Assembly (NCBI GenBank): GCA_021018995.1
Contig: CM037587.1
Location: forward strand, 7,132,866-7,196,865
DNA: 64,000 nucleotides
DNA from: Chloranthus sessilifolius
Lineage: Eukaryota; Streptophyta; Magnoliopsida; Chloranthales; Chloranthaceae
Direction: 5' to 3'
This document shows positions 8,441 to 64,000 of this stretch, one piece after another. The position numbers and the translations under genes are program-made. Every line of letters begins with the position of its first letter. Within the stretch, counting starts at the first letter, position 1. The notes beneath the pieces were generated by a model. That model did no database searches, was not told where the DNA came from, and saw nothing but the letters and a program-made list of their open reading frames with translations.

Positions 8441-10112
8441 CTAGTAAAAAGACACGTGCAAATGCACGTGGATATTAGGACCTTTAAATGATCGAATTTT
8501 ATTTTTAGACATCTATAGGGTGATTTGAACATAAAAAAATATAGTATTTCAAGCGTTCGTTACTATGCTTTATGATTTAGTAAAGACAAAAAAATATATT
8601 TATTATTAAGTTTCTTATATCTTTATTATGTATAATTTAAAATTATAAAAAATTTAATAAAAAATAAAAAAATATAACTTATATGGTCAATTATAGAACA
8701 TAAAGAAAAATAAATAAAAACTAACAAATAAGTATAATCTAGAAATTTTAATTAAATCGAAAATGGGTATTTATTCCTTTTCGACTTTAACTTTCTTGAG
8801 GATTTGATCGTCTACATCATCCGTAGTCTCAAATTTAATGTTTTGGGATATCTACAACCTTGTAAGATAATTTTGATAAATTGCATTTTGCACTTTGACT
8901 TGAAAGAAATACTCATTTTCGAAATATTGACACCAAATTTGATTTTAAGGTCACTTTTTTGGGATCTGTGTCACGTCAAATCAACGTCTGACCATTTGAT
9001 GGTACGCCCATTATCTCGAGATCAAGTGTGTGAAAAGTTGGAACAAAAAAATTCTCCATCATTTAGTTTAAAACTGTCAATTAGATTCGGTGGACATAGT
9101 TAATTAAAGGTAAAATTACATTTTGATAAAATCACCTGTCATTCATCTCGTTTAAATTTGATTTTAAGGTCACCTTGAAATTTATGCATGTCAAATCAAT
9201 ATCTAACTGTCTGATGGTACGCCCATAATCTCAAGATCAAGTGTGTGAAAGATTGGAACGAAAAACACTGTTATCATCCATTTCAAAGCAGTTAATGGGT
9301 TTTAACATGGGCGTTCTCAAATATTTAGTTGAGATATTTAAAGGTATGTTTGGAGGTGGGATTTTAATTGGCATGCTGAGTTGCTATAGTTTGATCAGGT
9401 CTAATTGGTTGAATTTTAAATGCGGTTCAAACATATTTGAGAAGTACATGTGCATTGCACGTGGACACTGTAAAATGAAATATTTTGTTTAAGGATGATT
9501 TTAATTATGAGTTAAAATTGACCGATCGTATAAAATCATAATCGTATATTATCAGGCAATCACTAAAAAACTAATAACAATTATTGTAAAATATTATATT
9601 GATTCGAGTATTTTGTAGAACTTATTATAGATACATGTTTTTATCCTATCATGTTTGATTAATTCGATGATATACTAATTATATATGTTTAATAAAATTT
9701 TCTTAATTGCTAATTTCTACTTTAATTTTATAATAACTAATGTAATTAAGGCTTCAAATTTTCATACCCTATATATTTATTAATTATTATTAAAAATATG
9801 AATAGTAATGTTCACCCATACATAGGGGTCCAAGTTTTGACTCAAAACTCAAACCTGGCCTGAAAATCGGCGAATCGAACTAGTTCAAACAAACCCGAAA
9901 AGCGATAATGAACCTATTCTGGACTGTTTTGATTTTTGGGGGGAAAAATAAAAAATTTATTAGATAGTATGAGAAAACTGAGAAAGTAGTTTAAAATAAT
10001 AAAATGGTGATTGCACCCCATTCAAATTCATGATTGCTTGAAATTAGGTAATGGAGATCGTTTTTCACCCTAATTTTTCGTAGAATAGTTCTTGAGATTA
10101 CGATCTTACCCT
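8441..10112. repeat. Diverged second copy of the 3508-5365 block (Helitron ends plus MITE starts)
   Basis: The block order repeats in the same orientation: a CTAG-hairpin Helitron end (8441; minus-strand CACGTGCATTTGCACGTG hairpin intact), the AT-rich body, a second Helitron-like end (about 9434), a GGGTCCAAGTTTTGACTC element (9827), and the start of a GGAGATCG MITE (about 10020). The middle spacer differs and carries two GGAGATCG-family half copies (about 8940-9090 and 9155-9310). Confidence 0.65.
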
Positions 10113-33830: not shown

Positions 33831-35700
33831 TGATGTGTTGATTTAATTTGTACTCGTAAGTGCACGAATCGTGATGTAGTCAGTGGGTGCAAAGTACGAG
33901 ATCGTTCCTACGAGGATTAGTTAGAAAATTTAAAAATAAAAAATAGCAATTAACTAAAAGAGTTTCCACAGATCTATCACAGTAACCAACAATCTAGGGT
34001 TCTCATAAATGAGATAAATGCTAACAGATAAATACTAAAGGAATTTAACAATTAATGAAAGATAAGGATTGAGATGCTAAATCCTCCCATCGTAAGTTTA
34101 TCATTTACAGAATACCAATCTGTGGATTAAGAAATGAGATCTTTAACAGATTTCTCAAAAGAAGCACTGCCCTATACACACGTGAGTTCTAAAATATATA
34201 TCTGATATCACGGAGATGTATGATTAACATCCTATGAGTGTATGATTAACACTCACACCTCGGACAACATTTAGAACCCAATCTCTAGGGTGATTTCCAA
34301 AGGACAATATAAAATCAAGGAGATGTATTATTAACATCCCATGGGTGTATGATTAACACCCACACCTCAGATCGTGATTGGAACTCACCACTGGGATAAA
34401 GTCATACTATCAATCCGAGATCAAGGAGATGTATGATTAACACCCCATGAGTGTATGATTAACACTCACACCTCAGATGGTAGTAAAACTTCACCCCGAG
34501 ATGGGTAATAATTAGGATAAAATTATTATTGCAGATCTGAAATCATAGGGCTCCTAGATCTCGGACTGAAATGATGATTTCACCATTTTCAAAGAATATT
34601 AAGGTCTTAAAAAGTATCTAACATCTCAATCACACAGATTTATATTAATATAAAATGAATACCTCGGATGGGGTTCATTAGATCCCCATCCTTAATGAAA
34701 CTAGCCACACATAATTGAAATAAGTAATAAAATAAATACAGAAGTTGAAAATACCATTAAAATACCGTAAAGAATTATCCACAAAAATTCACAAAAGCTT
34801 TAATCCAAAGTACGTACACCTCCTTCTTGAAAGTGGATCCAAATCAGAAAACTAAGACTTATCTTCTCTCACAATAAATATTAAAAAGATAGTTCAAGAA
34901 ACTGAGACTCTATGCTCTTACAGGTTAAAAAGCAGAAGACTAAAAAAAATAGAAGAATGCAGTAAAAAAATGAAAACTCTCAAAAACAGAAGTCCCTCAA
35001 AAGAAGAATGCAGAAAGAAATAAGAATAAGAATAAGAATAATCATCTCTGAAGGACTCCTCAAATGAATATATCTCAAAGAATATCTTTTTCCTTAATTG
35101 TCAAAACAGAAGCCGCTTTTTCCTCCAAGATTTTATTCCGTGAAAAGAGTACCGAGATTTTCGAGGCCAAACAAAATTTCGAACTCAAATTCAAATTTGG
35201 TCGATCGATCGACTAAAGAGGGTCGATCGATCGACCATATCAGATTCTGTTTTGAAATTCCAAATCTTCCGGATTAGGTCAATCGATCGACCAAAAAGGG
35301 TCGATCAATCGACCTCACAGATTTTCGTGAATTCCCGCTACACTTTGTATCAGACACTGCCTCGGTATTTCGGCCATAACTTTCGATCCCGAAGTCGGAT
35401 TGAGGCGATGTTTACGGCGTTGGAAAGCTGACGATGAGTTCTACAATGTTTGCGTTTTGACAAATTTCTGAATCTAATGTCTTGAAGGTTCAAATTAAGC
35501 TCCAAGTCGGGATAAGTTTCGAATGATCCAAGGTAGCACGAATTTGACGTTATATTCTGAACTTTTGGATTATTTCATGCTTAACATATCTCCAGGCCTG
35601 TAAATCACTAAAACTATATAAAACATGTTAAATGACTTTCATCGGGTAGCTAAATGTAGGTCTTTAGGGGTAAAATATCATCATATTTCACTGCACATCA
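33831..35700 (-). mobile_element. Solo LTR, same family as 54098-55895, inserted at a primer site
   Basis: On the minus strand it starts TGATGTGCAGTGAAATATG and ends CAAATTAAATCAACACATCA. It aligns with the LTR at 54098-55895 over most of its length (1870 bp). The flanks GATGG and TATGG share four bases, and the insert falls inside the primer-binding region of the host LTR element. It contains four GTCGATCGATCGAC-type palindromes (35200-35315) and a tandem array at 34188-34490. Confidence 0.75.
34188..34490. repeat. Tandem array inside the LTR, unit about 120 bp, three copies
   Basis: GGAGATGTATGATTAACATC / GAGTGTATGATTAACACTC / ACACCTCAGAT recurs three times with substitutions. At the equivalent place the LTR at 54098 has its own, differently worded array (55085-55455). 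Confidence 0.75.
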
Positions 35701-37875: not shown

Positions 37876-38090
37876 CAAGGTATAAAAAATACCGATATGT
37901 ATTGAATTTAAGCAAATCGATACATACCAGTATCCCAATAGGGATACCCGATCGGCCGATACATATGGGTTTATCCCTAATTTTACAATTCTTTTTTTTT
38001 AAAAGTAAAATTGGCTGATACATATCGATCGAGTCGTATCAGTCTTGGACAAACCAATACCCGATCGATACCGATTTTGATAATTTGGTC
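37876..38090. mobile_element. hAT-like MITE remnant with CGATAC palindromes
   Basis: CAAGGTATAAAAAATACCG on the left, then GATACATACCAGTATCCC, GATCGGCCGATACATATG and CGATCGATACCG words; the right end is near TTTGATAATTTGGTCC. It directly abuts the next MITE. Confidence 0.5.
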
Positions 38091-46723: not shown

Positions 46724-47216
46724 TCTAAACCCATGCTTGGTGGCTGCCAAGTGACGCTTGATTACATGGTGGGGTGTTAAATGGATGTGCAGGCCGATGA
46801 TTTGGACCATTGAAAAAAATCCCAAAAATAGTTATATATATGGGAAATTTCCCAAATCAACCCTGTCAGATTCAACCTTTCCGTCAGAGACCTTATATTT
46901 TCACCTTTCACCTAACCGATCAGCTCTAACCTCAGCCGTCGCCCGCCTTTATGAAGTGCCGAAATTACCCCCAAGGTAATAAATAGTTGTCATAAATATA
47001 GGGTCATCATTGTTTTAGCTTTTACTTTTTACTTTTCGTTCAAAGTCGGTGTAAGGCAGAGTCGTTTCAAAGTCAGTGATGCTCGATTGTTCAATTTTCA
47101 AGCTACCAAATATGTAAGTTAGAAACCAAATTAGCTTCCATTTCTATAGAATTTTATCTTCTTTCGACGGTTTATATTTTGAATTAATTTTTTTTTATTT
47201 CACTATCATAACGGAG

Positions 47217-47350
47217 CGATAACGACTGTTTATAGACAATCGATATCGATTGTCTATGCAGTCGATATCGCTTGTTTAAAAAGTCGTTATCGATATTATA
47301 TACAGTCAATATCAATTTTCTATGCAGTCGATATCGATTTTCTATACAGC
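47217..47350. repeat. GTCGATATCGATT array 1 (upstream of the Ulp1-type gene)
   Basis: About six copies of a roughly 22-bp unit whose core is GTCGATATCGATTGTCTATA, in variants such as GTCGATATCGCTTGTTTAAA and GTCAATATCAATTTTCTAT. It lies in the presumed leader or promoter, ahead of the first ATG. Confidence 0.8.
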
Positions 47351-48307
47351 CTGATTATAATATACAGTTCATTTAAACAATCTGTTTTAGTATGGGAGTC
47401 ACTCTTTTCAATTTTGTTACAGTTCATTTTAACAAGACTTCAAGATGGTCGTACAGCGGGCTATTGCCAAATGTTCCCCTACTGGCATTTGGACGTTCTA
47501 CGATGAGGCTAGCCCGGAGCGGAAGGAGTTACTAAGAGCATCAGTTTTCGATGGAATATTCCAAATGCTAAAGGTTGTGAGTTTTCTTGAAAATGTCGTC
47601 GATGCGATGTTGAGTTTTTGGGTTGAAAAGAATCACTTCCGAATCGGAAAAAAAAGATGTTTATATTTGAAAGATGGATATTGCCTTAATGCTGGGCTTT
47701 GTTGTGGTTGAATCCCAACAGTATACCCCTTCCATTAAACCATCGGAAAAGAAAATGATTCGCTACAAATATTTTCGTGGACTGTCTACCGGGAAAATTC
47801 TTTGGTCTCATATAGACTCTGGAATCAGGCTAGCGCAAAGTGACGAAGACTTTGTAAAGTTGGTTGTTCTATTTATGTTGTGAACATTTCTCTTTCCGAG
47901 GTCCCACCATCAACTTTCGAAAGATTACGTTGACTTCGTCGATGCCGTCGAGAACTTCAAATAAACTCCGTAGGGTCGCTATGTGTTCCATGACTTGCTG
48001 GAGTATATAGAGAAGGGTGTGGTGAATAGAAAGACTGCCGACAAGGATATAGCTTTTAAGCCGTATAATATTTATGACTGTATTTGTGTACTTTAATGGT
48101 GGGGCTATGAGATGCTGCCAGAAATCTCACTTGAAATAACGCCCTTGAAAAACCCTTTCCCACAATAGTTGAAATGGGCAGAGAAGGCACAAATGAGGAC
48201 GAAAGGCTACTCTCTTGGGAGGATACAGAACAACAAAACATGATGTCTATTTAAATACTTCAAATTTCTAAAGATAAGGACTGTAAAGAGTACCATTGCC
48301 AATTGTA

Positions 48308-48395
48308 TAGGGATATCGACTTCTTTCACTGTCGATATTGACTTCTGTCACAGTCGATATCGACTGTGTTAGCAGTCGATATCTTGCGCTAATAA
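48308..48395. repeat. GTCGATATCGACT array 2 (presumed intron)
   Basis: Four units: ATATCGACTTCTTTCACT, GTCGATATTGACTTCTGTCA, CAGTCGATATCGACTGTG and CAGTCGATATCTTG. It lies between the DUF1985-type block and the next coding block. A T-rich tract ending AAAG precedes the next block at about 48450. Confidence 0.8.
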
Positions 48396-49754
48396 TCTAT
48401 TTTCGATTTTGTATTTTGATATTTTGGGTGTTTCCCATTTTTTTTTAAAGGTTTGCGCTCCCCCCTTGAACCGGTTTCCTTCGAGTTGTAGATACCCGTT
48501 GTAAAGGAATATTTGCGAGGTCGAAAGGCTGTTGGGGGGAAGAGGAAAGAGATTGATGAATATGTCAAGTAAGCTGTGGAAGTGAATTTACGGTCGAAGA
48601 AGAAAAGAAATTACTTTCCGATTGAAGATATTGACGAGGAAGAATTTGAGAGCCAATCGACATTGGATGAAGACTCGTCCTCAATAGAGGGCCCCGTCCA
48701 ATTAGAGTGGCCGAGAACAAGAGAGGCAACGAAGGCAAGCGACAGTGCACCAAACTCCTCTAATAAAGTATTGTTGAAGAGGATTAACGATATGACACTC
48801 GACAACTTGAAACTCACTCAGAGAGTGAGCCATTTGGAGTAGAGAGTGAACCATTTGAATGAAGAGAATGCGCTCCTCCAGACACGATGCAACTTCTTGG
48901 ATGACCAGCTCACTTCAAGAGATGTGGAGCTGCAGACGATTAATCACACCAACAAGTTGATCAGAAAGGATCAAGGGATTTTCAAAGAACTCCTTCAAAT
49001 TATTTTGGAGGTAACACCTAAGGTAGTGTTGTAATGTAGTTTGTATAAGTGAATAAAATTATAACTTTCTAATAAAGTTTGTTTTGATATTCAGGATTGT
49101 GTTATTTCGGAGATGATATTGAAGGTGCCTAGCACGGTCTTCGATATCCCATCTAAGGGATCAGCTGATAAGGGACCAGCTGCTGAGGAGGTGGCAGCTG
49201 CTGACAACCAACCCGAGTCTCATGTCGAAAAGGGTCTTGTTGGTTATGAGTAACCCTCTTCCCATCCCGAGCAACCAATTGACGCTCGCTTGAGGCCTAG
49301 GAATAAACAAAACAAACTGTCGTGAAACCTAGGACCGGACGAAAGGGTCAGCAAAAAAAAACACCTAGAACGGAGACAACCATTGAGGAGAGGTTGGTCA
49401 TTTCTACGATTGAGCTGACAGGTAAGCAAAAGTACATGAATGCCCTCTGGAGCAGGCTTGCTGCGGATGACAAATAAGTTTTCCCATGATAGTTAGTAGT
49501 TAACTTTGTTATTAATATAGCACCTACGTAAGCACAGTCGATGATTTTACGCTCCAACTGCAGTCTTTGAGATGTTTGAAAGGCACAGAATACTTGGACA
49601 ATATTGTAAGTAACCGAATTTTCTCATATTGTTTGAGTGATGTTCATTTTTTTATGAAATTAAATTCGATCGCTTGTTCATGTTTAATTGCTCTCATTTT
49701 TGCTATGAAGTAAGGTAAGAAGTACCGAATGAAAAAATGATCGACCTTTTAAAC

Positions 49755-49900
49755 AATCGATAACGATCGTATGAACAGTCGATACCGATTGTATAAAGAG
49801 TTAATAACGATTGTCTATAAAGTCGATAACGATTGTGATACGGGTTGATACCGATTGTCTAAAAAGTCGATAATAATTATATATAGAGTCAATGACACTA
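49755..49900. repeat. GTCGATAACGATTGT array 3 (inside the GTAAGT...TTTCAG intron)
   Basis: About six units: CAATCGATAACGATCGTATG, CAGTCGATACCGATTGTATA, AGTCGATAACGATTGTGATA, TTGATACCGATTGTCTAAA and AGTCGATAATAATTATATA. It is wholly within the intron predicted at 49606-49913. Confidence 0.8.
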
Positions 49901-50981
49901 TTTTTTCCTTTCAGATAATAAGAGCCTATTTAAAACTCCTGAAAGCCATTAATGACAGTGTTCATCCTGAGATAAAGGATGAATGCTTCCTTATGGGCCC
50001 CACCGATTTGACCTATATGGGCTTAGACTTTAAGGATTTCAACAAATTTATTGTTTCTGAAAAACTCAACGAGTAAGTGTTGGGGATACAAATCGAATGG
50101 TGGTCTGCCCATAAGGAAGAAGTAAACCAACGTAGGAAAGTGCTACAAAACTTCTTTTTCGATCGATTGTTGGATCTGTGGGCTCACCAATGTACCGCGG
50201 TACATTACGATTACTACCAATAATGTTTCAAATTTTCAAATTGTATCCACTAATATTATATTATTCTTTTCAAATATTTGTCCCAATTCATTCTCATAAT
50301 CTATTACATTGGGTGTTTGCGATCGTGAAGGTTGTCGAACGATCGATAATGATCGTCGATCTTATTTTGGATAGGCCCTCTAAGGATAAATATCTGAAGC
50401 AATTGAATGTCCTGGTAAGAATATATAATACCAATTGTCCAAACTTACAAGTTTTCAACCCATATGCTTATCTTATCTGACATTGCATTTTTTTGAAACA
50501 TACCCCATTACCTTCTCGCACTTGTGTATTTATACGGAGATTCCACTGCACTGAGCGTTGAAATCTATCTTTGGTCAAGTTCTGACTTCCGGATCAAATC
50601 CCTTCCCTGACAGAGCAATGGGTGGGATTGTGGGGTGTTTATGTTGAAGTATGTGGAGTACTTCATGACAGGGAAGACATTCGACTTCACGCAAGAAAAA
50701 ATAAGTCAAATCAGGGCAGAAATTGGTCATGCCCTTGCTACATTCAATGGCGATGGAGGGGAGGAAGAAAGCGACAAAGGACTTACTAAAGATGCACCAC
50801 CCTCGTAGTTTTTTTCAAATGTAATTAAATTGTCATGTATATTTAAATTTGTCAGTAAATTGGCAATCTCAAATATGTACAAATTTATATGTGAAAATAT
50901 TTGAAAGTCAAAAATTTGTAATTTGAAGTATGTACAAATGTATATGTGACCATTGCCTGTTGGACTGATTTTGGACATGTG

Positions 50982-51232
50982 AACGACTGTATAGACAGTC
51001 GGAATCGATAGTTGACAGTTAAAACAGTCGTTATCGATTGTATATATAGCCGTTGACAATTGGATAAAGGATCGATATCGACTCTTTAACTAGTCATGGA
51101 CGACTGTTTATGAAATTGATATTGACGGTTTTCACACTTGCCAATGACTGTTTATGCAATTGATGACGACTGCGTATACAGTTGACAACGACTGTTTATG
51201 CAATCGTCAACGACTATTTATATAGTCGTTCA
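50982..51232. repeat. GTCGTTATCGATTGT array 4 (between the convergent genes)
   Basis: About ten units in more diverged forms: CAGTCGTTATCGATTGTATA, GATCGATATCGACTCTTTAA, CGACTGTTTATGCAATTGAT, CAGTTGACAACGACTGTTTA and CAATCGTCAACGACTATTTA. It lies after the end of the Ulp1-type gene and before the end of the transposase gene. Confidence 0.8.
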
Positions 51233-51399: not shown

Positions 51400-54097
51400 G
51401 AAAAAATATACATTCGAAAATGGTAATTCATTGTATATATTACATTCCAAATTTATAACTATTAAGAACCAAATTTGCGGCCAAACTTTGCTTCGTAATG
51501 TTCCTTGTATGATCTATGCAGCTTCTTGTACTGTTTCTAGATGCGATCTATCTCCATCTGCTGCGCATGAATTACAATCCTATCATCTATCGGTAGATGA
51601 CTTGTGTCAAATTTATACCAACATATCCTATTTTCGGAGAATGATTCTGTATCGGAGGTTATTTCTTCATTCTTAAAATTTAAAATAATTACGAAGGCGA
51701 TCATATAATAAAGAAAAAATTTAATATAATAAAAGTTGTACCTAGTGGTAGTAAAATTAGTCTAACGATTTTTCATGTCCACTAGTTTGAAAGTTTCAGT
51801 GCGTAAATATCATCTTGCCCTTGTCGGAGGTGCAAGCCTACAATTATCGTTTGGGTTACGGGACGTGACGTACCTTCACAATGAAAAATACAAACCAATC
51901 TCTGTCGGTAAATAAGTTACCAAATAAAATCTCATTTGTTAATAGACAGAAAAATGTAAGTTATGAAACTCTTAATGAAACACTTCCGCACTCATTGCTA
52001 GGATTAGAGAGCGATTTACTATATATCAACCCATCGGTCCCACAGCCGTACAACTCCTGTAATTGTGATCATACTCACTACACCTATCACATTGTAGGGC
52101 CCTAATTTTATCCTCAGATCGAATCATTCTCTTCCTCAGATGTCCGGCCTGCTTTCGTGCATTATAGGGTAGTTTTGCTTTCATATTTTCCGGCAGTTAG
52201 TCAGCTTGGATTGCCCATTGGCTTTTATTGAGTGTGAGAACTTATTGTTCGTCGTATATTTGTCTAAAGCAAGCGATGAAAAATTACTTCTCACAAAAGT
52301 TGTGGTAATAATAATTTCTCCGATTGATGGCTGCAACCGCATGTGAGCAAGGCAAATAATTAATGAGTCAACGGCGACAAGTACATGTCTTATGTTCCAA
52401 GTCAACGTGATGAATGAAATTCCCAAAATTCACTTGGAACTGATCGCCCATATATGGTTGAGCTCTCTTTCTTCTAGCCCATTAGAGCACCTTCTTCATA
52501 TGCTCGTTTGTTTTTGGATAGTAGACGATGCTCCAATTCTCATAATTCTATCGGTGTTTTTGAAAATAATTCGCAACTTTCTCTGTAGTAGTTCTGATTA
52601 AGTCGATAATTGGTTTCTCTTGAGCCACCTTCAGTACGCTGTTTAAGCTTTCAATATTATTCATAGTAAGAGAATCATACTGCCTTCCTTTGAAATATGC
52701 GTGTGCCCAATGCTTCAGATCTATTTTTGAAATATAGTCGAAGGCCCGAGGATCAACATCTTTCTTGATTTTGTTAATAGAATAATCAAATTTGTCTGTT
52801 GAAAATGCACGGGCAACGCACCAGCTAGATCCAACGCACCATTCTTGGGATACTTGTTTCCCAAATTTTGTGTCATATATTGCATGCAGTAGTTGTAGTG
52901 TGCGTTAGGAAAGATTTATTTTATCGCCTTTATTAAATCCTTCGACCTGTTCGTGATAATAACAAAATCTTTGTTAAACTGACTAATCACGAACACACTT
53001 ACCCATTCAAGAAATCACATTCACGTATCCTCTTCTTTTAACTTGACGAGGACGAATGCTAACAATAATATATGACCATTACCGACTTGCGCTAAGACGA
53101 TAAGTAGGATCTCTTCGAAACATTTTCATAGATTTATGCCATCTATAAGTAATATGCAATAAAGTGTATTGTAGTAGCTACCGATGCACGGGCCAAAATC
53201 TCAAAATAAATCTTTGGAACTTACCATCAAGTGTAAGTTGAAAAGATGTTCGTACATTAGGATCTACCATCTTGATCTCCTTTACGTAGACCGATAGATC
53301 AACAAACTGTCTTTGCCAACTTCATTTAATATCGTTTAGGGCGATTTCTTTTCCCCTCCAAGCCTTAAAATATTTGATTTATACATTATAAGTTTTTACA
53401 ATATCAAACATTATAGATGCAGGTGTATATTCGAATCTTTCCATAAGTTAGCCCCATACATAGTTGGCTACGAACGAAACTATTGCATTATCGTGTGCTC
53501 CAATCTTAGCAGCCCCGCATGTGTGAGTACTATTGAACGTCTTGATTTTGAAAGAGTCGAGCTCAGTCAATTTAGACGCATGTATTCGCCATGAACAATC
53601 GGGTTCGTAGCATCTGACTGTCACTCGATAACTAACAATTTTCAAGGGCCAGATTTGAAAGTTTTTCTCTATCGCATGTTCTTTTATTACTCTTTGGAAT
53701 GCTTGTTTGTCTCTGAAGATCTTTCCAACTTTAAATATCCAATTCTGATATTCGGTTTATACCTCTTGATCAGAAGAGCTGTCCGATGTCTCTGACCCTT
53801 CGTAATCTCCATCTACTAGAGGATTATTAATGTCTCTCACGAAAATTCTCAGATCCTCTTTTATAAACCCATCTGATTCGCTATCATAGTCTTGTGCGTT
53901 CTCTTCTAAGTTATCTTCATTAGTGGGTCGGGGATGGCTACCCCCTTCACCAGACCCTTCACCAGTGGGGTTCTGATTAGGCCCTTCACCGAATGGGTTC
54001 TGGCGTGGTTGACTAGGCCCTTCATTGAATGGGTTTTGGCATGGTTAACTAGGCCCTTCACCAAATGGGTGCTCATGTGTTTGACTAGGCCCTTCAC
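51400..54097 (-). pseudogene. MuDR-type MULE transposase, decayed, N-terminus cut by an LTR insertion
   Basis: Read on minus. The N-terminal end at 53760-54097 is a repeat-rich, acidic leader (NEDNLEENAQDYDSESDG, then NPLVDGDYEGSETSDSSDQE). Then comes the MuDR DNA-binding domain at 53448-53720: FRDKQAFQRVIKEHAI, YRVTVRCYEPDCSWRIHASK, SFKIKTFNSTHTCG (Cys, Cys, His, Cys kept). Further along, at 52800-53000, decayed catalytic-domain words appear (FVIITNRSKDLIKAIK, then FPNAHYNYCMQYM, the conserved HxxC-like block). Possible SWIM zinc-finger traces lie near 51560-51640. Stops and frameshifts interrupt it throughout. Transposase for the element and related MITEs is the family role; this copy is inactive. 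Confidence 0.75.
53920..54097 (-). repeat. 36-bp coding tandem repeat in the MULE transposase leader
   Basis: AGGCCCTTCACCGAATGGGT... repeats every 36 bases (about 53970, 54018, 54054 and a partial unit at 54087-54097). In one minus frame each unit gives a 12-residue word (NPFGEGPSQP-like). The LTR element begins exactly after AGGCCCTTCAC of the last unit. Confidence 0.75.
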
Positions 54098-55895
54098 TGA
54101 TGAGTAGTGAAATATGATGATATTTCACCCCTAAATATCTATATTTAGCCGTCCGATGAAGGCTATCTGATGAGAATTACTAGATTTGAAGTGTTTCAAG
54201 TAAATACAATCCAAGTGCAGAAAACAGCCCAAGAATTCTGAAAATAATATCAAAACACTGCAACTTTGGGTTATCAAGAACTTGGTGCGACTTGCAGCTC
54301 AATTTGGACCATCCAGACTTTAGCTTCACGAAATTTCCAAAACACAAAAGTTGTATATCTTTCTGTCAGCTTTCCAACGCTGCAAGAATCATATTAATCC
54401 GAGTTCGAAGTAGAACGATATGGCTGAAATACCGAAGCAGTGTCTGATATATAAGTGGGCTAGAATTCACAAAAATCTGGGAGGTCGATGCATCGACTCT
54501 TTTGCTTGATGAATCGAGGGACAAAAGTAGTCTGACATGGAATAAACTCTTTAAAGCAGATTTTTAGAGATTTTTGGAGGGTCGATGCATTGACCCTGAC
54601 TTTTCGAGCTGGAAAACCTACGCAATTTGGAAACTATTTAAAGCCGAATAAACACTCCGAGAGGGGAATTAGATAGATAATTAGAGTTAGTTTTAGTTTT
54701 TCTTTTTCATAGTTAGACGTAGAAATAGAGATTTTCTTTATTCATTTTTGAGAGCTTTGTTCCTTTAACTTTTCAGTATTCCTTCCTTTAATTTATTGTT
54801 CTTGTTCAGTTGATTCATACTTTAAATTTAAAGATTAGTAGAGAGCATTATTAATTTTGTTTCTGAAGATCATCGTACTTATGGATCAAAGAATTTTTAT
54901 TGAAGTTTGAGGTATTTTTAATTGATTAAATTGATGTTATTTTTCCTTCCTTATTTATTTATATCATTTAATTACAACATGTGTGACTAAATTTATAGGG
55001 ATGGGGATCTAATGATTCCCATCCGAGGGATGCACTTCTAATAATATAAATCTATGATTAAAATATGAGATCTTATTTTATGGTTGTTATGTTATCACGA
55101 ACGGATGAAATCCCCGCCACTAACTGGGATCGAGTGTACTGAGCCATACCCTGGATCTCAGATCTATGACGGAAATTTTGCCCCAATCATTGTTATATGG
55201 TATTTTACTTTCATCGTGTGGATCTACTTATGATTATGATCTGGGATCTCGTGTGTCTAGCCATGCCCTGGATCTTGGATCTGTAATGGTAAGTTTATCT
55301 TAATTACTCCCTAATCTGAAATCAAGTGTGCCGAGCCATGCCCTTGATCTCAGATCTATGGTGAAATTTTTATTAGAATTTTTACCCACTTTGGAGATGA
55401 TTTTTATTTGCATCTGAGATCAAGTGTGTCGAGCCATGCCCTTGATCCCAAATCTATATATGAAAATCATCTATGAAGTTAAGTCCTGATTGCAGGGATG
55501 CAACGTGAAACCTATCAGAGTTTTGACCATTTATCTTCCATAAAAGATGTTTTTCTTCAATGGTATATCTCATAGTTTAATCCTTAGATTTATATTATGG
55601 GAAGAACAGACCAAAGATGTGAGGATTTAGTATCTTCATATTTATCTTCATCTTTACCTTTATTTTTGAATTATCAATTAAGTTTTAGTTTGTAGTCGGT
55701 AATTGTCATCTCACAAAACTAGATCATAATATTGGTAGGGTACTGTTGAATCTTAGTAGATTTCTTGAATTGCTGTCTCATCTTTTTAGATCTTCAAAAA
55801 TAGTCCTCGTGGGAACGATCTCGTACTCCGCACCCACTATATACAATCTAATTCGTGCGCTTGCGAGTAAAATATTACAATTAAAAATCACATCA
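54098..55895 (+). mobile_element. 5' LTR of a Ty3/gypsy-type element
   Basis: It starts TGATGAGTAGTGAAATATG and ends AATTAAAAATCACATCA (1798 bp). It is matched by the partial 3' LTR from 63482. It contains GTCGATGCATCGAC-type palindromes (54482-54600) and a four-copy array of about 110 bp (55085-55455, core GAGCCATGCCCTTGATC). Over the roughly 505 overlapping bases the two LTRs differ at about 45 positions by eye, so the insertion is some millions of years old, more if the plant is slow-evolving. Confidence 0.85.
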
Positions 55896-56333
55896 AGTTT
55901 TTAGCGCCATTGCCGGGGACTAAATCAAGAAAATCTGAATTTTTGGGAAATAGACAATTAATTTTAGAGATTTCCATGGATTAAAACAGTATCTCTGCTA
56001 AAATTTAAAAAAAAAGGAGTATCGATCGATCGACCTAAACAGTCGATCAATCGACTCCAAAAAAAAAAATAATAATAAAAAAAATAAAATAAAAAGAAAA
56101 TTTTTTTTTTGGTGTTATTGGTGAAATCATGTCAATGCATGAATTCAATCTAAAATCATATGCTATTTGTGGAAATTCGATGCACATTTCACCTATGTGT
56201 CCCTTGAACAACTCAAATTATTAGCCTGAACAAGTCCAGCTAAATCCTGTTTGGAACAATCATGACTGGCAGAGTCAATCTAATGACATGTGGGGTTTTA
56301 ATCAACCTCTAATGTGTGATATGATGCCTTACA

Positions 56334-57122
56334 ATGATCAAAATTCTTATCCCAACAAATTTTCATGAGTTTTCACAGCAAACTCAATACTTTCAAGACA
56401 CAAAACCATATGAACCAGCCCAAAATTCTTCTTACCCCTTAGAATATTTAAAAGGTTTGGTGCACACCAACACTCAAAGAATTTCTAGGATACAATCTCA
56501 AGTTAGTCAGATGATCGAGTACTTACAAATGAAAGTTGAAATGGTGGATTCCCTCATTGATACCGATCGGAATGAGGAACATTTTCAAGAGGACTCATCT
56601 GATTTTGTTCAAAAATACGAGGATGACCAATTGGTCACTACGCTTGAGAGTGACATAACGAGCGTTGAGGTAGTGCAAGTGCAAGGAAAAGAGGAAATGG
56701 AATGGAACGATACTTATGTCGAAGAGGGACTTGAGAATCAAATTGAGATGAGAGAGAAAGAAAATAGCACCCTTACAACACCTGATAAGGGAAACATAAC
56801 TTTTTCCGATAAGTGTGAATTCGGTTTAGAAGAAAAAGAGGAATTTCAAATTTGTTGCCCATTCATTGAATACATTGATAATCAACAGAATGTCGAAAAA
56901 AGATTAATGAGTTTGAATCTGGAGTGCGATTTTGGGAATGTCAAGTACAGGGTAGAAATGGATCATAATAGTGGCACTTGGGCACATCATGGGAGTGTAA
57001 CTAAGTCCTTGAAAAGAGAAATACCGGGACGATTAAATAAATCGCTGATCCTGCTTAGAAATTTTTTTATGAAGATTTGGGATCCTGGTGGACTCGAAAT
57101 GAATTACAACCTTGTAGATTAA
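56334..57122 (+). CDS. 262-codon open frame inside the LTR element, gag-like in character
   Basis: This is the longest uninterrupted frame outside the STP gene. The N-terminal third is Gln/Tyr/Asn-rich, then comes a helical stretch (RISRIQSQVSQMIEYLQMKV), then a long acidic region (EDDQLVTTLESDITSVEVVQ). Position just after the primer site and this composition fit the C-terminal part of a gag-type protein. There is no zinc knuckle. No certain family. Retroelement fossil. Confidence 0.5.
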   Translation: MIKILIPTNFHEFSQQTQYFQDTKPYEPAQNSSYPLEYLKGLVHTNTQRISRIQSQVSQMIEYLQMKVEMVDSLIDTDRNEEHFQEDSSDFVQKYEDDQLVTTLESDITSVEVVQVQGKEEMEWNDTYVEEGLENQIEMREKENSTLTTPDKGNITFSDKCEFGLEEKEEFQICCPFIEYIDNQQNVEKRLMSLNLECDFGNVKYRVEMDHNSGTWAHHGSVTKSLKREIPGRLNKSLILLRNFFMKIWDPGGLEMNYNLVD

Positions 57123-57179
57123 TTTCGCAATTTTCCTTTAAAAAAAAATATAAATAATAATAATAATATTAATAAAATT

Positions 57180-57670
57180 AAAATTAAAATTAAAAAAATT
57201 CTGCTTTTGGTCGACTAATCGACAAAGGAGGTCGATTAATCGACCCTTCCACTCAATTAATCGACCTCTTCATGTCGATTAATCGACAGTAATGATGAGT
57301 GTCTCCTTTTTCAAGGAGACAACATTTATGGAGGGGCTGACTTATATGTCAGTCGATTGATCGACTTTCAAAGTCGATGCATCGACTACTCCGTGTTGAA
57401 GACCGTGCTGTCTTTTCAGATTCTGTCAGGATGTTTTTTTTAATGGAGTCAATTCATCGACTCCCAGAGCTGATTAATCGACTTAAATTCTGTGCATGCG
57501 TTTTTGTCTTTTCACTGCCTCGATTAGAGTCGATGCATTGACTTCGAGTGTCGATTAATCAACCTTTCCAATTCTGGATGTTGCGTCTTTTCATTCGATG
57601 CCGTTGTGTGTTTCCATGCAGTGCAGTTAAAGCTGCGCCTTTTCCCACTGAAGTCAATTAATCGACTATA
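57180..57670. repeat. Cluster of GTCGAT-NN-ATCGAC palindromes
   Basis: About a dozen 14-base palindromes or near-palindromes in 490 bases: GTCGACTAATCGAC, GTCGATTAATCGAC (several), GTCGATTGATCGAC, GTCGATGCATCGAC, GTCAATTCATCGAC. The centre varies (TA, GC, TG, CA), while the half-site GTCGAT is kept. Spacing is irregular. Related clusters: 35200-35315, 54482-54600, 56018-56060, 59727-59765, 60690-60870 and 63868-64000. Confidence 0.85.
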
Positions 57671-58599
57671 TGCGGTGTGACCGTCCAGAAAGGACGCCTT
57701 TGCGTCTACTTAGGGGAAGGACTCTATCTTCCCTTCTCATTCGATCTTTCTCCTGTTTCTCTCCTGACAGCCTCCGACATTTTGATCGTGCTTTCATGGC
57801 TTCCTCACCCGCCGCGCCGCAAAAGCTTTCCCAACGTCCTGTTGGTCATCCACGTGAGCAGCCACGTGGTCGCTTCGCTTCCCGAGATCTTTCTTTCGAA
57901 TATCTTTTCGATCTCACGCCATTTCAGGACATGCCTGTCTGCGTCGTTTCCCTTGCCTATGTAATGGCTCTCAACGTCCATTTTCTCCTCACTCCGCCTG
58001 TGATCAAAGTGTCCGAACGGGTCGTTCGTTTATTCTATCATAACATGGCATGGGTGACCGCCTCCGTTGAGGATCATGTCACTGCCCACTTCACTATTTC
58101 AATCGATGGGTGGTCGCGCCAGTTTATCCGCACACCATTGCGGATGTTTTTAACATTTCTTGCGAGCGTCCTCACAATCACACTTTGGGTGAAGAGATTG
58201 ACGATTCTCAGGAGGATATAATCAACGATATGTGCCGCGGCATATTTTCTTCAGGAGTCGCCACTAGGCGATCGGCGTTATCGCGCCCGCTTTTGTTCTA
58301 GGATAGTGTGGTCTGTAGTAACCTCTGCCCCCGTGGCCACATTTCTGAGAGCACCGGTGATCGGGTTCAGGCGCTTTATGGTGCCCCCGAAATTTGTGGA
58401 TCAACGTGCCCAGGATTCTTCATGATGGCATGTGACGATGCCATGAGGATATCACCAACCCTGCCATTGGTGAAATCCCATTGATATATTTTCCTCATTA
58501 TGTTATGAAGCTGCTTAATTTCCTTCGTTTCCCGTTTTATCGGGATGATGATCTTGGGGACCTCGCATTTTATCGCTATGGTGCAACCCAATGGAACCG

Positions 58600-60149
58600 T
58601 GATCGATTTTAAATGTAACCCTTGCAAGTGCACAAGATCTATTGCAGTATGGCAAGAACAAAGGTGTCGAACCCACAGAGAAATCTTGAATTTTAATTAA
58701 TTCTTTCAGAGATTTAAAAACGTCCCCAAGGAAGTACCAAAGGGCAGATTCAATTTACCAAAAATTTATCACACTTTTCCTATTTGCAAGAAAAATAAAT
58801 TAATGTAAACAACTAATTACTAATGAATCTAAAAATAATATTTAAATATGATCAAGGAATATGCTACCCCATATTTGTATCCCTTTTCTACCATTAAAAC
58901 CAACAGTTTTATTAAAGCATCATTCACAGCATCATTCAGCTATAGAGATGATTCGTAATAAAATATGATCATCAATCCGGCATACCCTATGTAAAAACAA
59001 TGACTCAGCCTATCATTGCGGTATGAGTCATGTAAGAAGCATAGCGTATCTCATGATGTTTAGATCACAATAGTAAACACATAATCACTCTGCAGCCTAG
59101 ATCAGTCTACAGGTCCAGATCTAGCGATTATAGCCATGATAGCATTCAATATATTTTCAATAACACAAACTTTGAGCAAAATGATTCCATGATGACATAA
59201 TAGACTATGGTATTAATCATAAATATGGGTACTTATCTGGGGATCGCATCTTCCCCGATCAACTGATTTAGCCGCTCATCTTTGGTGTATGATCTCCTTA
59301 TTCATTCAAAGTCATTCCTCTTTTTATTTCTTCCAAAGATCTTTGTTTACAATGCCTTTTCCTAAATACAATCTATGCTTTCATGAACGTAAAGGAAAAA
59401 TAATGCAAATCCTAGGTACAATCTACCCAGATGGAACCCTAGAAGGAGAAAGAAGAACTCTTGAAAAGATGCCAAGAGGAGTCTAAAACCAAAAATAATA
59501 ATAATGAATAATAATCTTCTAAAAAATTCTCTCCAAAAACTCTAAAAAAAGAAAAGCCAAAACTAACTCTCTAATTATCTATCTTTAATTCCCCTCTCTA
59601 ATTCCTATCTCTAATTCCTTATCTCTAATTATCTATCTCTCATTCCTCCTTTCCGAAGTGTTTGATCCGCTTTAAATAGAGTCGAAGTTTTCCAGCCACA
59701 GAGGTGTTCCAACTCAAAAATTTAGGGTCGATTAATCGACCCAATAGGGTCGATGCATCGACCTCCCAGATTTTCGTGAATTCCCGCCGAACTTTGCATC
59801 AGACACTGCTTTAGTATTTTGGCCATAACTCTCTGTCTCGAACTCGGATTGGGGCGATTCTTAATCCGTTGGAAAGCTGATAGAAAGATCTACAATGTTT
59901 CTGTTTTAACAATTTCATAATTAGGCCGTCTTGAATATACAAATTGAGCTACAAATCACACCAAGTTCTCGATGACCCAATGTTGCAGTGTTTTGACATT
60001 ATTTTCAAAATTCTTGGGTTGTATTCTGCACTTGGCTTGTATTTACCTGAAACACTTCAAATCTAATAATTCTTATCAGATAGCCTTCATCGGATAGCTA
60101 AGTATGGGTATCTAGGGGTGAAATATCATCATATTTCACTACTCATCAA
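58600..60149 (-). mobile_element. Solo LTR of the same family, inverted, exact TSD AACCG
   Basis: On minus it starts TGATGAGTAGTGAAATATG and ends in a TGATC-inverted tail (TTTAAAATCGATCA); 1550 bp. AACCG stands on both sides (58595-58599 and 60150-60154). It interrupts the accessory block of the LTR element. It contains GTCGATTAATCGAC and GTCGATGCATCGAC at 59727-59765. The perfect target duplication suggests it is younger than its host element. Confidence 0.85.
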
Positions 60150-60689
60150 ACCGCAGTATGCGTCTTTTGGGAAATGTCCCTGATACTCCACCACGTCAGC
60201 GCCGCCGCGTACGCCAGGATGACCAGCCTGCGCTTGATCAGGGACCCGAGGAGGGTGTGTCTCTTGGTTCGCTCTAAGCTCAAATTAACTCTTTACAGGA
60301 GGAGCAGCAGCGGCAACATGGTGCAATCTTGCACCGAAGCTACTATGATCGTTCCTTCCTCCATCAGATCGGGCAGCGCATGCGGCCTGATAGTTATGAT
60401 GAGATGTGCGCGAGGGCTCGCCAGGCTGAAGAGGATGGGGATGATTAGTTTGTTTAGTCTAGGATTATGATTTTTCGTTTTGTGTTATTTTTCTTTCTTT
60501 AGGTTAGGTTGTTTATTTTAGGAATTAAATCAGAAGTGTCCTTGTAGATTATCTTGCTTATCAATGAAAGAGTGTGTTTTCTAATCTGTTTGGGATTGCC
60601 AATATTTTTGCAAATTACCTGTTGCATTTAGAGGAGTTGAACAACAAAATTGAAATACCAATATCAGCGACTTTTCACCTCTCTGCCCA

Positions 60690-60870
60690 GATGGAGTCGA
60701 TTAATCGAGGGTTATACTCGATTAATCGACCCACGATTTTCAAAAAATAAAAAATAAAAATTTTGGGGGGCCAATTTGGGAGTCGATTAATCGACCCCCT
60801 GAGTCGATTAATCGATCCCCCAGGGTCGATGCATCGACCTCCCAGGGTCGATTAATCGACCCCCACTTTT
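60690..60870. repeat. Second dense cluster of GTCGAT-NN-ATCGAC palindromes
   Basis: Six copies in about 180 bases (GTCGATTAATCGAG, CTCGATTAATCGAC, then GTCGATTAATCGAC, GTCGATTAATCGAT, GTCGATGCATCGAC, GTCGATTAATCGAC), separated by short CCCCC/GGG spacers that extend several palindromes to 18 bases. Confidence 0.85.
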
Positions 60871-61499
60871 TGGGATCGGATGCCTCCTGCGACTCTCCTT
60901 GTCAGTCTCCGTTATTTTTTGGAGTCCCTCAAGCGTACTGACACACTTTTCATTAGTTCTTTTTGCGGGACACCTCTTTCCACTCCTACTCCAACTCTAT
61001 CAATTTTTCCCTTATATTCACCCTTAGGCTCACGTTCCATTAAATCTTGCACAACCTTCTCATGGCCCAACGATTCTATCTCACCAGAGCACGGTTATCA
61101 AAGATAGAGGAGACTGCTAAAAAGCGGGAGCGCCGCTCTCATCAGACGGTCGCTTTTGAGCCTAGCAATATTGAAATCATCGACCTTGATCCGATGATCA
61201 TTCCTTCCTGGGGAGAACCATCTAGAAAGAAGGTAAATCCTTCCAAATCTCCTACACCGTGCATCAATACTAATATCGAGATAATTGATGTGATTCCGTC
61301 ACCACCTCCCTCATCTTCATCTCCTACTGTCGCCTCACCGCCTCCATCCATACCATCGGCGGTGTCTCTTCAATTTTTCCTTGATCTTTGGGAGAAATTG
61401 TTCCCTGTGCCTACGAACATCGATTTAAGTGAACCAAGGTGGATGGGCCCGCCTACCACTGATTAAAGGAGTTGGATTCTTGATTAGTTTAGGATTTAA

Positions 61500-63481
61500 G
61501 ATTTAAGATTATTATTATTTTATTTTATTTAGTTTAGGTTATTTTTAATTCCCTAAATAGTGTACCCTTATTCCCTTCAATAAATTTTTGGTTATGTTCC
61601 AAGTTGATGCACATATTCTCTGCACCTGATCTTTGTGTTGAGGTACTTTTTAATAGGTTTGGGGTGCAATCCTTATTTCAAATCAATGAGGACATTGTCA
61701 TCTTTCGGTTTGAGGGTATGGTTATTTATTTTGTGTCACTTATTTTTTATTGCGTCACTTATTTTTTATATATGAAAAAAAAATAATTTTTTTTTTTTTT
61801 TTTTTGAAGTCATCATGCACATTATTTTGTAATTATTTTCAAACTTTAGTTGATGATGCATGTGAATTTAATTTTGAGAATATTGATGTCATATTTTGAT
61901 TACTTGTATCTAAGATGAGGATACTTAATGTGATATTTTGTGGGTAATTTTGATATTCATGCTTATAATTTTTGCACTTATACCAAGCTAAGACTTGAAA
62001 TCGATGAACTGTTTTGAACGTTGAATCTTAGGTTCTTAGTGGAGATTAAACCCAGTGAGCTTTAGAGCTAATTTCCCGTCATTGATGAGTGAATACATAA
62101 ACTCGGAGTTTTCTTTGAATACGACTTATTTTGCATAATCTCATACATTTTATTTTGACTTATGACTTTGCATGAAATCAAATTCATATTATTATGTTAG
62201 AATGTACTGCATATCTACTCAAGACAAATAGGCAAGGTTATCATCTTTTAAGGACATGATTGAAGGCCATCTTTGGCTCGTTTGTGCTTAAAATACCCCA
62301 CCTTATATAAATTTATCTTTCTAGTACCCCTTTGAGCCTATTAAAAAATTTACCTTTATACATTCCTTGATAAGCCACGTTAACCTTTAACCCTTCACCA
62401 TTTCTGAAAATTCAGTTTTACTCTTCTTATTTCTGAAAAAAATTAGCAACGAGGGATGAAAATGAACAAAAAGAGAGTAAATGGAGAGATATCGAGTTGT
62501 GGTGTTTACTGAGAGTGTATGGTAAAAATAAAAAGAACAAAAAGGGAGAGAAAAAGAAAAAAAAAGCTGTGAAAAATAATGGAAAAATATGAGGTGCTTC
62601 AAGAAAATAAAATTCAAAAGAAGAAATGGAGTGAGAAAAGAAAAAGAGAAGAAATAGAAAAATCAAAAGGTGTTCCCTTTCCGATTTCTCAAAAATTTTG
62701 AATTCTAACTTCCAATTCTTTCTTACCCTTACCTGAGCCCCATTACAACCCTAAAAAGACCTTCATGATCTGATCTTGCATTGGTAACTACCTTGTGGAG
62801 AGTAAATATGTGATACTTATGACACTTGATATGACATGCTTAGGATATACAAGTATCTTTTTATGAGATTTATTTTTGTTCATTGATTGCATCGTGTTTC
62901 ATTTATCATATGAGACTTTTTTATTTGCTTTGTATTGATCTCTCACATGTGTGCGAAAACTTATCCATCATCGGTGTCTTTATATTTTGAGAGTATACCT
63001 AAAGTGAGGATTGAGTCTAAACAACAGGTCCGACGATTTCCTATTTGAACTAGTTCTGAGATGAATGAATTTCGGTTTGGGTATGCACACACTTCACGTA
63101 TAGGCATGAATGGATGAGTTATCTAACGATTTGAGCATTAGACTAATTTGAATGGATATTAGTATGATTAGTATAAAATTGTTCTTTAAAATTGAGAATT
63201 CACATGTTGAATTGATTAATGGTTTTGAGTTTGAATGATATATATGTTATTAAAATCATGTTTTGAAAACTCAATTTTATCGATGGTTTCAAAAATGTAT
63301 TGAAGTTTGTGGGTAACTTCACTATAAACCCTCAAGAGACACAACTCCTCCACTAGGGATCACCTAGGGGTTTAAAGGCTTGTTGCACATGCTAAGTGTA
63401 ATCGTGCTCCATACGAAAGTGGCATTTATTTTTCTTTAGTTTGCTTTGCTCGAGGACTAGTAAAGTGTAGGTTTGGGGTTA
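61500..63481. other. Non-coding 3' part of the LTR element interior
   Basis: AT-rich, with T runs at 61785-61805 and A/G-rich sequence at 62440-62670. Two overlapping Phe-rich minus frames in the latter are artefacts of purine-rich sequence. No domain recognised. It ends in the purine tract before the 3' LTR. Confidence 0.45.
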
Positions 63482-64000
63482 TGATGAGTAGTGAAATATG
63501 ATGATATTTCACCCCTAAATATCTACATTTAATCATCCGATGAAGGCTATCTGATGAGAATTACTAGATTTGAAGTGTTTCAAGTAAATACAATCCAAGT
63601 GCAGAAAACAACCCAAGAATTCTGAAAATAATGTCAAAACACTGCAACTTTGGGTCATCAAAAACTTGGTGCGACTTGTAGCTCAATTTGGACCATCCTG
63701 AAGTCGGCTTCATGAAATTATCAAAACACAAAAGCTGTAGATCTCTCTGTCAGCTTTCCAATGCAGTAAGAATCATGTCAATCCGAGTTTGGAGTAGAAC
63801 GATATGACCGAAATACCAAAGCAGTATCTGATACAAAAGTGGGTTGGAATTCACGAAAATCTAGGAGGTCGATGCATCGACTCTTTTGCTCGATTAATCG
63901 AGGGACAAAAGTAGTCTGACACGAAATTGACTCTTTAAAGTAGATTTTTAGAGATTTTTGGAGGGTCGATGCATCGACCCTATAAGGTCGATTAATCGAC
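63482..64000 (+). mobile_element. 3' LTR of the Ty3/gypsy-type element, cut by the window end
   Basis: TGATGAGTAGTGAAATATG and onward aligns with 54098-54610. If it is the same length as the 5' LTR, it should end about 1.3 kb beyond the window. Confidence 0.85.

Follow-up and report, generated by a model that had tools for sequence, protein, structure and literature searches.

The window, a 64,000-nucleotide stretch of the Chloranthus sessilifolius genome, contains a Mutator-like transposon (MULE) with terminal inverted repeats (TIRs) of about 97 bp, a 9-bp target duplication, a MuDR-type transposase gene and, convergent with the latter, a decayed gene encoding DUF1985 and Ulp1 domains. The MULE is divided by a nested LTR retrotransposon, and its right end lies beyond the window, in the locus denoted L009. 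The features are as follows (positions refer to the window unless L009 is given).

46833..46841, no strand assigned: target duplication at the left end, 9 bp, TATATATAT; the identical nine bases follow the right end in L009
46842..46938, plus strand: left TIR, 97 bp; the right TIR is L009:3641-3737, inverted, 81.4% identical over 97 bp
47212..47341, no strand assigned: array S1, 6 sites, upstream of the DUF1985/Ulp1 gene
47446..48237, plus strand: exon 1 with a broken DUF1985 domain (tblastn with the DUF1985 exon of locus L039, E 1.7e-20 in a small sequence set)
48238..48450, plus strand: intron 1, borders compared across copies; the donor in the window copy is AC
about 48302..48389, no strand assigned: array S2, 3-4 sites, inside intron 1; two sites above the cutoff in the window copy
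49606..49914, plus strand: intron 4, GTAAGT...TTCAG borders, holding S4
49753..49902, no strand assigned: array S4, 7 sites, within intron 4
50136-50477, plus strand: weaker Ulp1 piece (E 0.0032, under the Pfam cutoff)
50339..50356, no strand assigned: lone site in the Ulp1 exon, scoring above 14 in the trained model
50611..50805, plus strand: Ulp1 (Peptidase_C48), C-terminal part (E 1.8e-6)
50995..51217, no strand assigned: array S5, 10 sites, between the convergent genes
53451..53756, minus strand: MuDR transposase DNA-binding domain (DBD_Tnp_Mut, E 1.5e-13)
54098..64000, plus strand: nested LTR retrotransposon; left LTR 54098-55895, right LTR from 63482 to L009:2288, duplication TTCAC
L009:3071-3249, outside the window: array S6, upstream of the transposase gene

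The Peptidase_C48 and DBD_Tnp_Mut matches bear out the original prediction of an Ulp1-carrying MULE, and the element combines a MuDR-type transposase with TIRs and a target duplication of about 9 bp. The DBD_Tnp_Mut domain was also found in other copies (L016, E 2e-9; L018, E 7.4e-12). All nine bases of the duplication agree in the window copy and in copy E016, whereas in several other copies the duplication is imperfect or unclear; TATATATAT consists of low-complexity bases and is weak evidence by itself. The transposase gene runs on the minus strand from roughly 54097 to 51500 and is cut at 54098 by the retrotransposon, the LTRs of which match at 91.5% (alignment gaps included) and past which the MULE resumes with array S6 and then the right TIR. 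In the convergent gene, the DUF1985 exon spans two frames and contains stops; of the 10 aligned copies, 8 have GT at the intron-1 donor, where the window copy has AC, and intron 4 has a GTAAGT donor in 8 and an acceptor ending in AG in 10 of 11 copies. Van Leeuwen is said to have described Ulp1-carrying MULEs of melon and rice in 2007.

Tandem Repeats Finder called 22-bp arrays at 47236-47349, 48312-48383, 49750-49873 and 51100-51221 of the window, and a symmetric model trained on the four window arrays (26 sites) gives a repeat unit composed of an 18-bp palindrome, ACAGTCGATATCGACTGT, and a 4-bp spacer, in agreement with the palindromic unit that had been proposed. Matches to the 20-bp word with up to three mismatches numbered eight in the window and were confined to three of the four arrays, compared with 0.00 over 100 shuffles. 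In a hold-out test, the model built from the other three arrays found 6, 2, 6 and 7 sites, with 0.018, 0.009, 0.016 and 0.028 expected, respectively (site rates expected from simulation refer to Markov sequences throughout), confirming that one word recurs in several separate non-coding gaps. Outside the arrays, two sites in the 64 kb score above 14, with 0.23 expected: one at 50339, in the Ulp1 exon, where its conservation, judged by eye, is no better than that of the coding surroundings, and a single site of the MULE word at 38061-38078, outside the MULE.

The word proved to be abundant in the same 2.17-Gb assembly (32 contigs), with 2412+2506 matches at up to two mismatches compared with 9+4 for the reversed pattern, and MULE sequence adjoins the array in seven of the eight loci first returned (L005 is without it). 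From contiguous stretches we assembled eight copies extending from TIR to TIR, including that of the window, and three partial ones. The word occupies up to six homologous slots in these 11 copies, upstream of both genes, in introns and in the intergenic region, so that arrays do recur at the same gaps as had been anticipated; every copy except the window's was located via the word itself. With a slot counted as filled when it holds at least three sites scoring above 10, S1 (upstream of the Ulp1 gene), S4 (intron 4) and S5 (intergenic) are filled in all eight full-length copies, S2 (intron 1) in seven, the window copy having two sites there, S6 (upstream of the transposase) in seven, and S3 (intron 2) in two of the eight full-length and all three partial copies. 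A set free of this selection was obtained by a search with transposase DNA only (1780 candidates, 40 scored), from which 12 of the top 15 were used, the window, one copy already in use and one with a match starting far inside being dropped. The S5 interval contains at least three sites in all 12 of these copies, chosen by transposase similarity alone, with 109 sites in 5,122 bp, compared with one site at the same threshold in positions 1-46000 of the window. A seven-site array of the MULE word was also observed at L023:4918-5101, in a 10-kb locus in which no MULE coding sequence or TIR was found; this array is a remnant or a non-autonomous derivative.

The claim that every non-coding gap of the element is filled was wrong. 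Intron 2 of the window copy (after 49050) is without an array, five of the 11 copies having one there, and no array was placed at 49966-50730 or 52024-54801 in the 11 copies, the bounds in E013p being too wide to judge; at least one further intron was read by eye in these array-free stretches. The companion claim, that coding blocks are free of the word, holds nearly but not strictly: coding blocks contain 12 of the 504 scored sites in the 11 copies, at two homologous positions, one corresponding to the lone site at 50339 (scoring in 8 of 11 copies) and the other at about 47834 (4 of 11).

Successive sites are spaced by multiples of 22 bp in 377 of 414 cases in the 11 copies, and exact GTCGATATCGA pairs occur genome-wide 384+399 times at 22 bp, some places being counted on both strands, compared with 1+0 at 18 bp. 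When units were compared among gaps and copies, as the original prediction had called for, mean identity was 0.689 for units of the same array, 0.651 for units that share a slot across elements, 0.649 for units from separate slots of a single element and 0.633 for the remainder; the difference between the last two values exceeds all 500 permutations, though it is slight and could stem from subfamilies. Array lengths vary between copies. Both this variation and the gradient of identity, highest within an array and slightly higher within an element, are what slippage and conversion predict if the arrays are neutral minisatellites, that is, if the word arose once, was copied among the non-coding parts and was kept by descent, with exons free since insertions there break genes. 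We consider this explanation unlikely, given that old, broken copies keep the slots filled and the 22-bp phase. CpG retention is 76% in units and 50-68% in coding blocks, but it was not used as an indication of hypomethylation, since a preference for CG is built into the site model.

Clustered subterminal transposase-binding sites are known in En/Spm and Ac, a precedent for the possibility that the MuDR-type transposase binds the arrays, of which S1 and S6 are subterminal and begin a few hundred bases from the ends of full-length copies, or that the arrays aid assembly of the transpososome. The proposed check for the word in the TIRs was negative, however: the terminal 100 bp on either side of all eight full-length copies lack it (best score 3.8, cutoff 10). 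Arrays also lie in the middle of the element and in introns, which makes a transposase-binding function very unlikely. The broader proposal that the arrays have a role in each gap fits the data better than spread followed by purging, except for its transposase-binding version, which is unsupported at the word-free ends.

The single open pieces of the MULE accessory gene produced no match to DUF1985, and the domain was recognized with the help of a relative and an alignment. In the related locus L039, the DUF1985 exon is open (E 1e-11) and is accompanied by an Ulp1 part (E 4.6e-6); in a small sequence set, this DUF1985 exon matches all 11 copies, with E values from 1.6e-36 (E014) to 1.7e-20 (the window copy, in two frames). 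In an alignment of the two families, namely that of the window (family A) and that of L039 (family B), all eight members match PF09331 (DUF1985), the best at 5e-15; the family A member shown has an E value of 7.5e-5, under the Pfam cutoff, and its relatives lie above it. A search of the DUF1985 profile against solved structures, up to E 10, returned one match only, to VANC21 (E 0.011), and a single-sequence search returned VANC21 at E 0.059 followed by a LysR regulator at E 0.14. A coiled-coil dimer domain, also considered, is weak, the heptad score being reached by 2, 12 and 89 of 200 shuffles in three copies.

Family B carries a different word at equivalent places. Its word, GAAGCG-N4-CGCTTC, most often recurs 21-23 bp apart, and in L039 plus eight loci chosen from the 150 listed by a DUF1985 exon search (mostly 2.4-kb pieces) there are 184 B sites in 27.2 kb, compared with 13.4 in simulated sequence. 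The B arrays occupy intron 1 and the region preceding exon 1, homologous to the family A slots, and a few lone sites fall within exon 1 or at its edge (L047:941, L045:1496, L042:1527). The B loci contain 6 A-type sites, and the A elements (97 kb) contain 56 B-type sites, near the simulated rate. Genome-wide, the strict B word is found 151+131 times and its reversed pattern not at all, and 25 of the first 100 B-word places listed are within 15 kb of a listed B exon (77 listed exons on the same six contigs; 0.27 expected). Both words keep CG-N4-CG at the centre. No transposase match was detected in 8 kb of L039, and family B is accordingly treated as a DUF1985/Ulp1 family that may or may not be a MULE. 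As homologous places in the related family hold a different word, the word appears to have been replaced in several slots, and the scenario of spread within the element followed by purging from exons, put forward originally, is not needed. A different palindrome with a nearly equal period at homologous places also argues against neutral minisatellites. Tandem Repeats Finder detected no arrays of this type in the 8 kb surrounding the gene in either of two further DUF1985 elements, L037 and L038. On the reverse strand of L038 (7457-7622), about 4 kb downstream of a DUF1985 gene, we observed a third palindrome cluster, TCGCTCGAGCGA, with four exact copies and one variant.

The distribution of slots over both upstream regions and introns would suit sites for a host factor acting as a transcription or intron enhancer. 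This seems to us the least probable of the explanations considered, since S5 lies beyond the 3' end of each gene and since different words in related families of one genome are not required by a host factor. In our assessment, the transposon instead likely carries a VANC-like anti-silencing system that acts sequence-specifically, with the arrays as its targets. A protein of the VANC type (DUF1985 plus Ulp1) would be the product of the convergent gene. Where intact, it would recognize the palindrome, probably in dimeric form, and occupy clusters in the upstream regions of both genes, the introns and the intergenic region, with sites phased two helical turns apart; binding would remove DNA methylation from the element and so lift host silencing. 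Specificity would come from the word, its density and its period, and the work of Sasaki from 2022 reportedly found motif sequence, density and helical periodicity to set specificity. We infer that word and protein co-evolve: the word would change across the slots along with the protein, giving rise to related families with different words. The window copy, being decayed, would be at most a target of the factor. Several observations count against this anti-silencing reading, namely the weak VANC21 match with LysR close behind, the family A DUF1985 value under the Pfam cutoff, the failure to find a transposase match in the 8 kb of L039, the form of the Arabidopsis motifs, which are short and of a single orientation where the present word is an 18-bp palindrome, and one array locus without MULE sequence.

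VANC proteins are described as carrying DUF1985, and VANC21 of Arabidopsis as binding YAGTATTAY, mainly in non-coding VANDAL21 sequence and often in tandem repeats, whereas VANC6 binds a motif other than that of VANC21 in tandem repeats of non-coding VANDAL regions (PMC5735166). A review describes a subset of VANC genes (KIU) that include Ulp1 and target motifs of related elements (PMC13317346). The best reading by analogy is that the present system would work like VANC/VANDAL and KIU anti-silencing. As accounts of VANDAL21 and VANDAL6 with VANC21 and VANC6 have it (PMC5735166, PMC10398659), the systems are alike in pairing a MULE with an accessory DUF1985 protein, in a short motif in variable tandem repeats within introns, intergenic and terminal non-coding regions, in related families having different motifs, and in a motif common to an unrelated element (AT9TSD1 there). 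In Chloranthus we correspondingly find a DUF1985 accessory gene, tandem motif arrays in non-coding regions with few sites in exons, and different motifs in related families, the last via family B, which may or may not be a MULE. The differences are that the present motif is an 18-bp palindrome with a strict 22-bp period, whereas the Arabidopsis motif as described is 9 bp in one orientation, that Ulp1 lies within the same gene, and that the TIRs measure 97 bp, whereas VANDALs are described with degenerate TIRs. Because of its 97-bp TIRs, neither degenerate nor absent, the element is not filed as a strict VANDAL, and a MULE review states that some VANDAL relatives do possess TIRs (PMC6446971). 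The KIU (Kaonashi) elements, described as non-TIR MULEs, are similar in having a DUF1985/VANC-type gene with Ulp1 and motif arrays in non-coding parts (PMC13317346), the Ulp1 domain in the accessory gene being the mark of the KIU subtype; the present case differs in plant, in words and in the presence of TIRs. Ulp1-carrying MULEs of grapevine are reported to combine a MuDR-type transposase with an Ulp1 region in either orientation, and the main text of that paper nowhere uses the word 'tandem' (PMC2528002). The Chloranthus elements display VANC-like anatomy across many copies of a large plant genome's MULE, and two families provide two readable words in one genome, with period and palindrome kept while the bases change, so that joint change of protein and target becomes directly testable, with the solved VANC21 structures 9lnj and 9lnk available for comparison.

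The nested retrotransposon belongs to an LTR family with a palindrome of its own, GTCGAT-NN-ATCGAC. The proposed sharing of a core with the MULE word is real at the level of the half-site, but the LTR half-sites stand two bases further apart. At up to two mismatches, the window contains 33 sites of the LTR palindrome, which include an older copy near 35200 (35200-35313) and one MULE site, and 16 of the 24 neighbour gaps shorter than 120 bp measure 21 or 22 bp. In the genome, GTCGATTAATCGAC occurs at 9280 places, compared with one for the reversed pattern, and pairs at 22 bp, the one spacing counted, number 4103+4134 (many on both strands), compared with none for the reversed pattern. Two internal pieces of the retrotransposon that were searched gave no Pfam match. 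The matching period in this family also speaks against neutral minisatellites. With half-site GTCGAT in both of two unrelated classes, each phased at 21-22 bp, one may guess at a factor common to the MULE and LTR palindromes; that the LTR family exploits the anti-silencing factor encoded by the MULE, or a related one, so that anti-silencing would be shared and parasitised between transposon classes, is a doubtful though conceivable extension. If the LTR family were tied to the MULE factor, this would be hitchhiking between transposon classes, like that described for AT9TSD1 with VANC6 (PMC5735166). Separately, a word like AAAAACGATCTCCATCATCTGA recurs at many places between positions 300 and 45000 of the window; a palindrome search of the whole window drifted to this word, which is probably the end of a small dispersed repeat.
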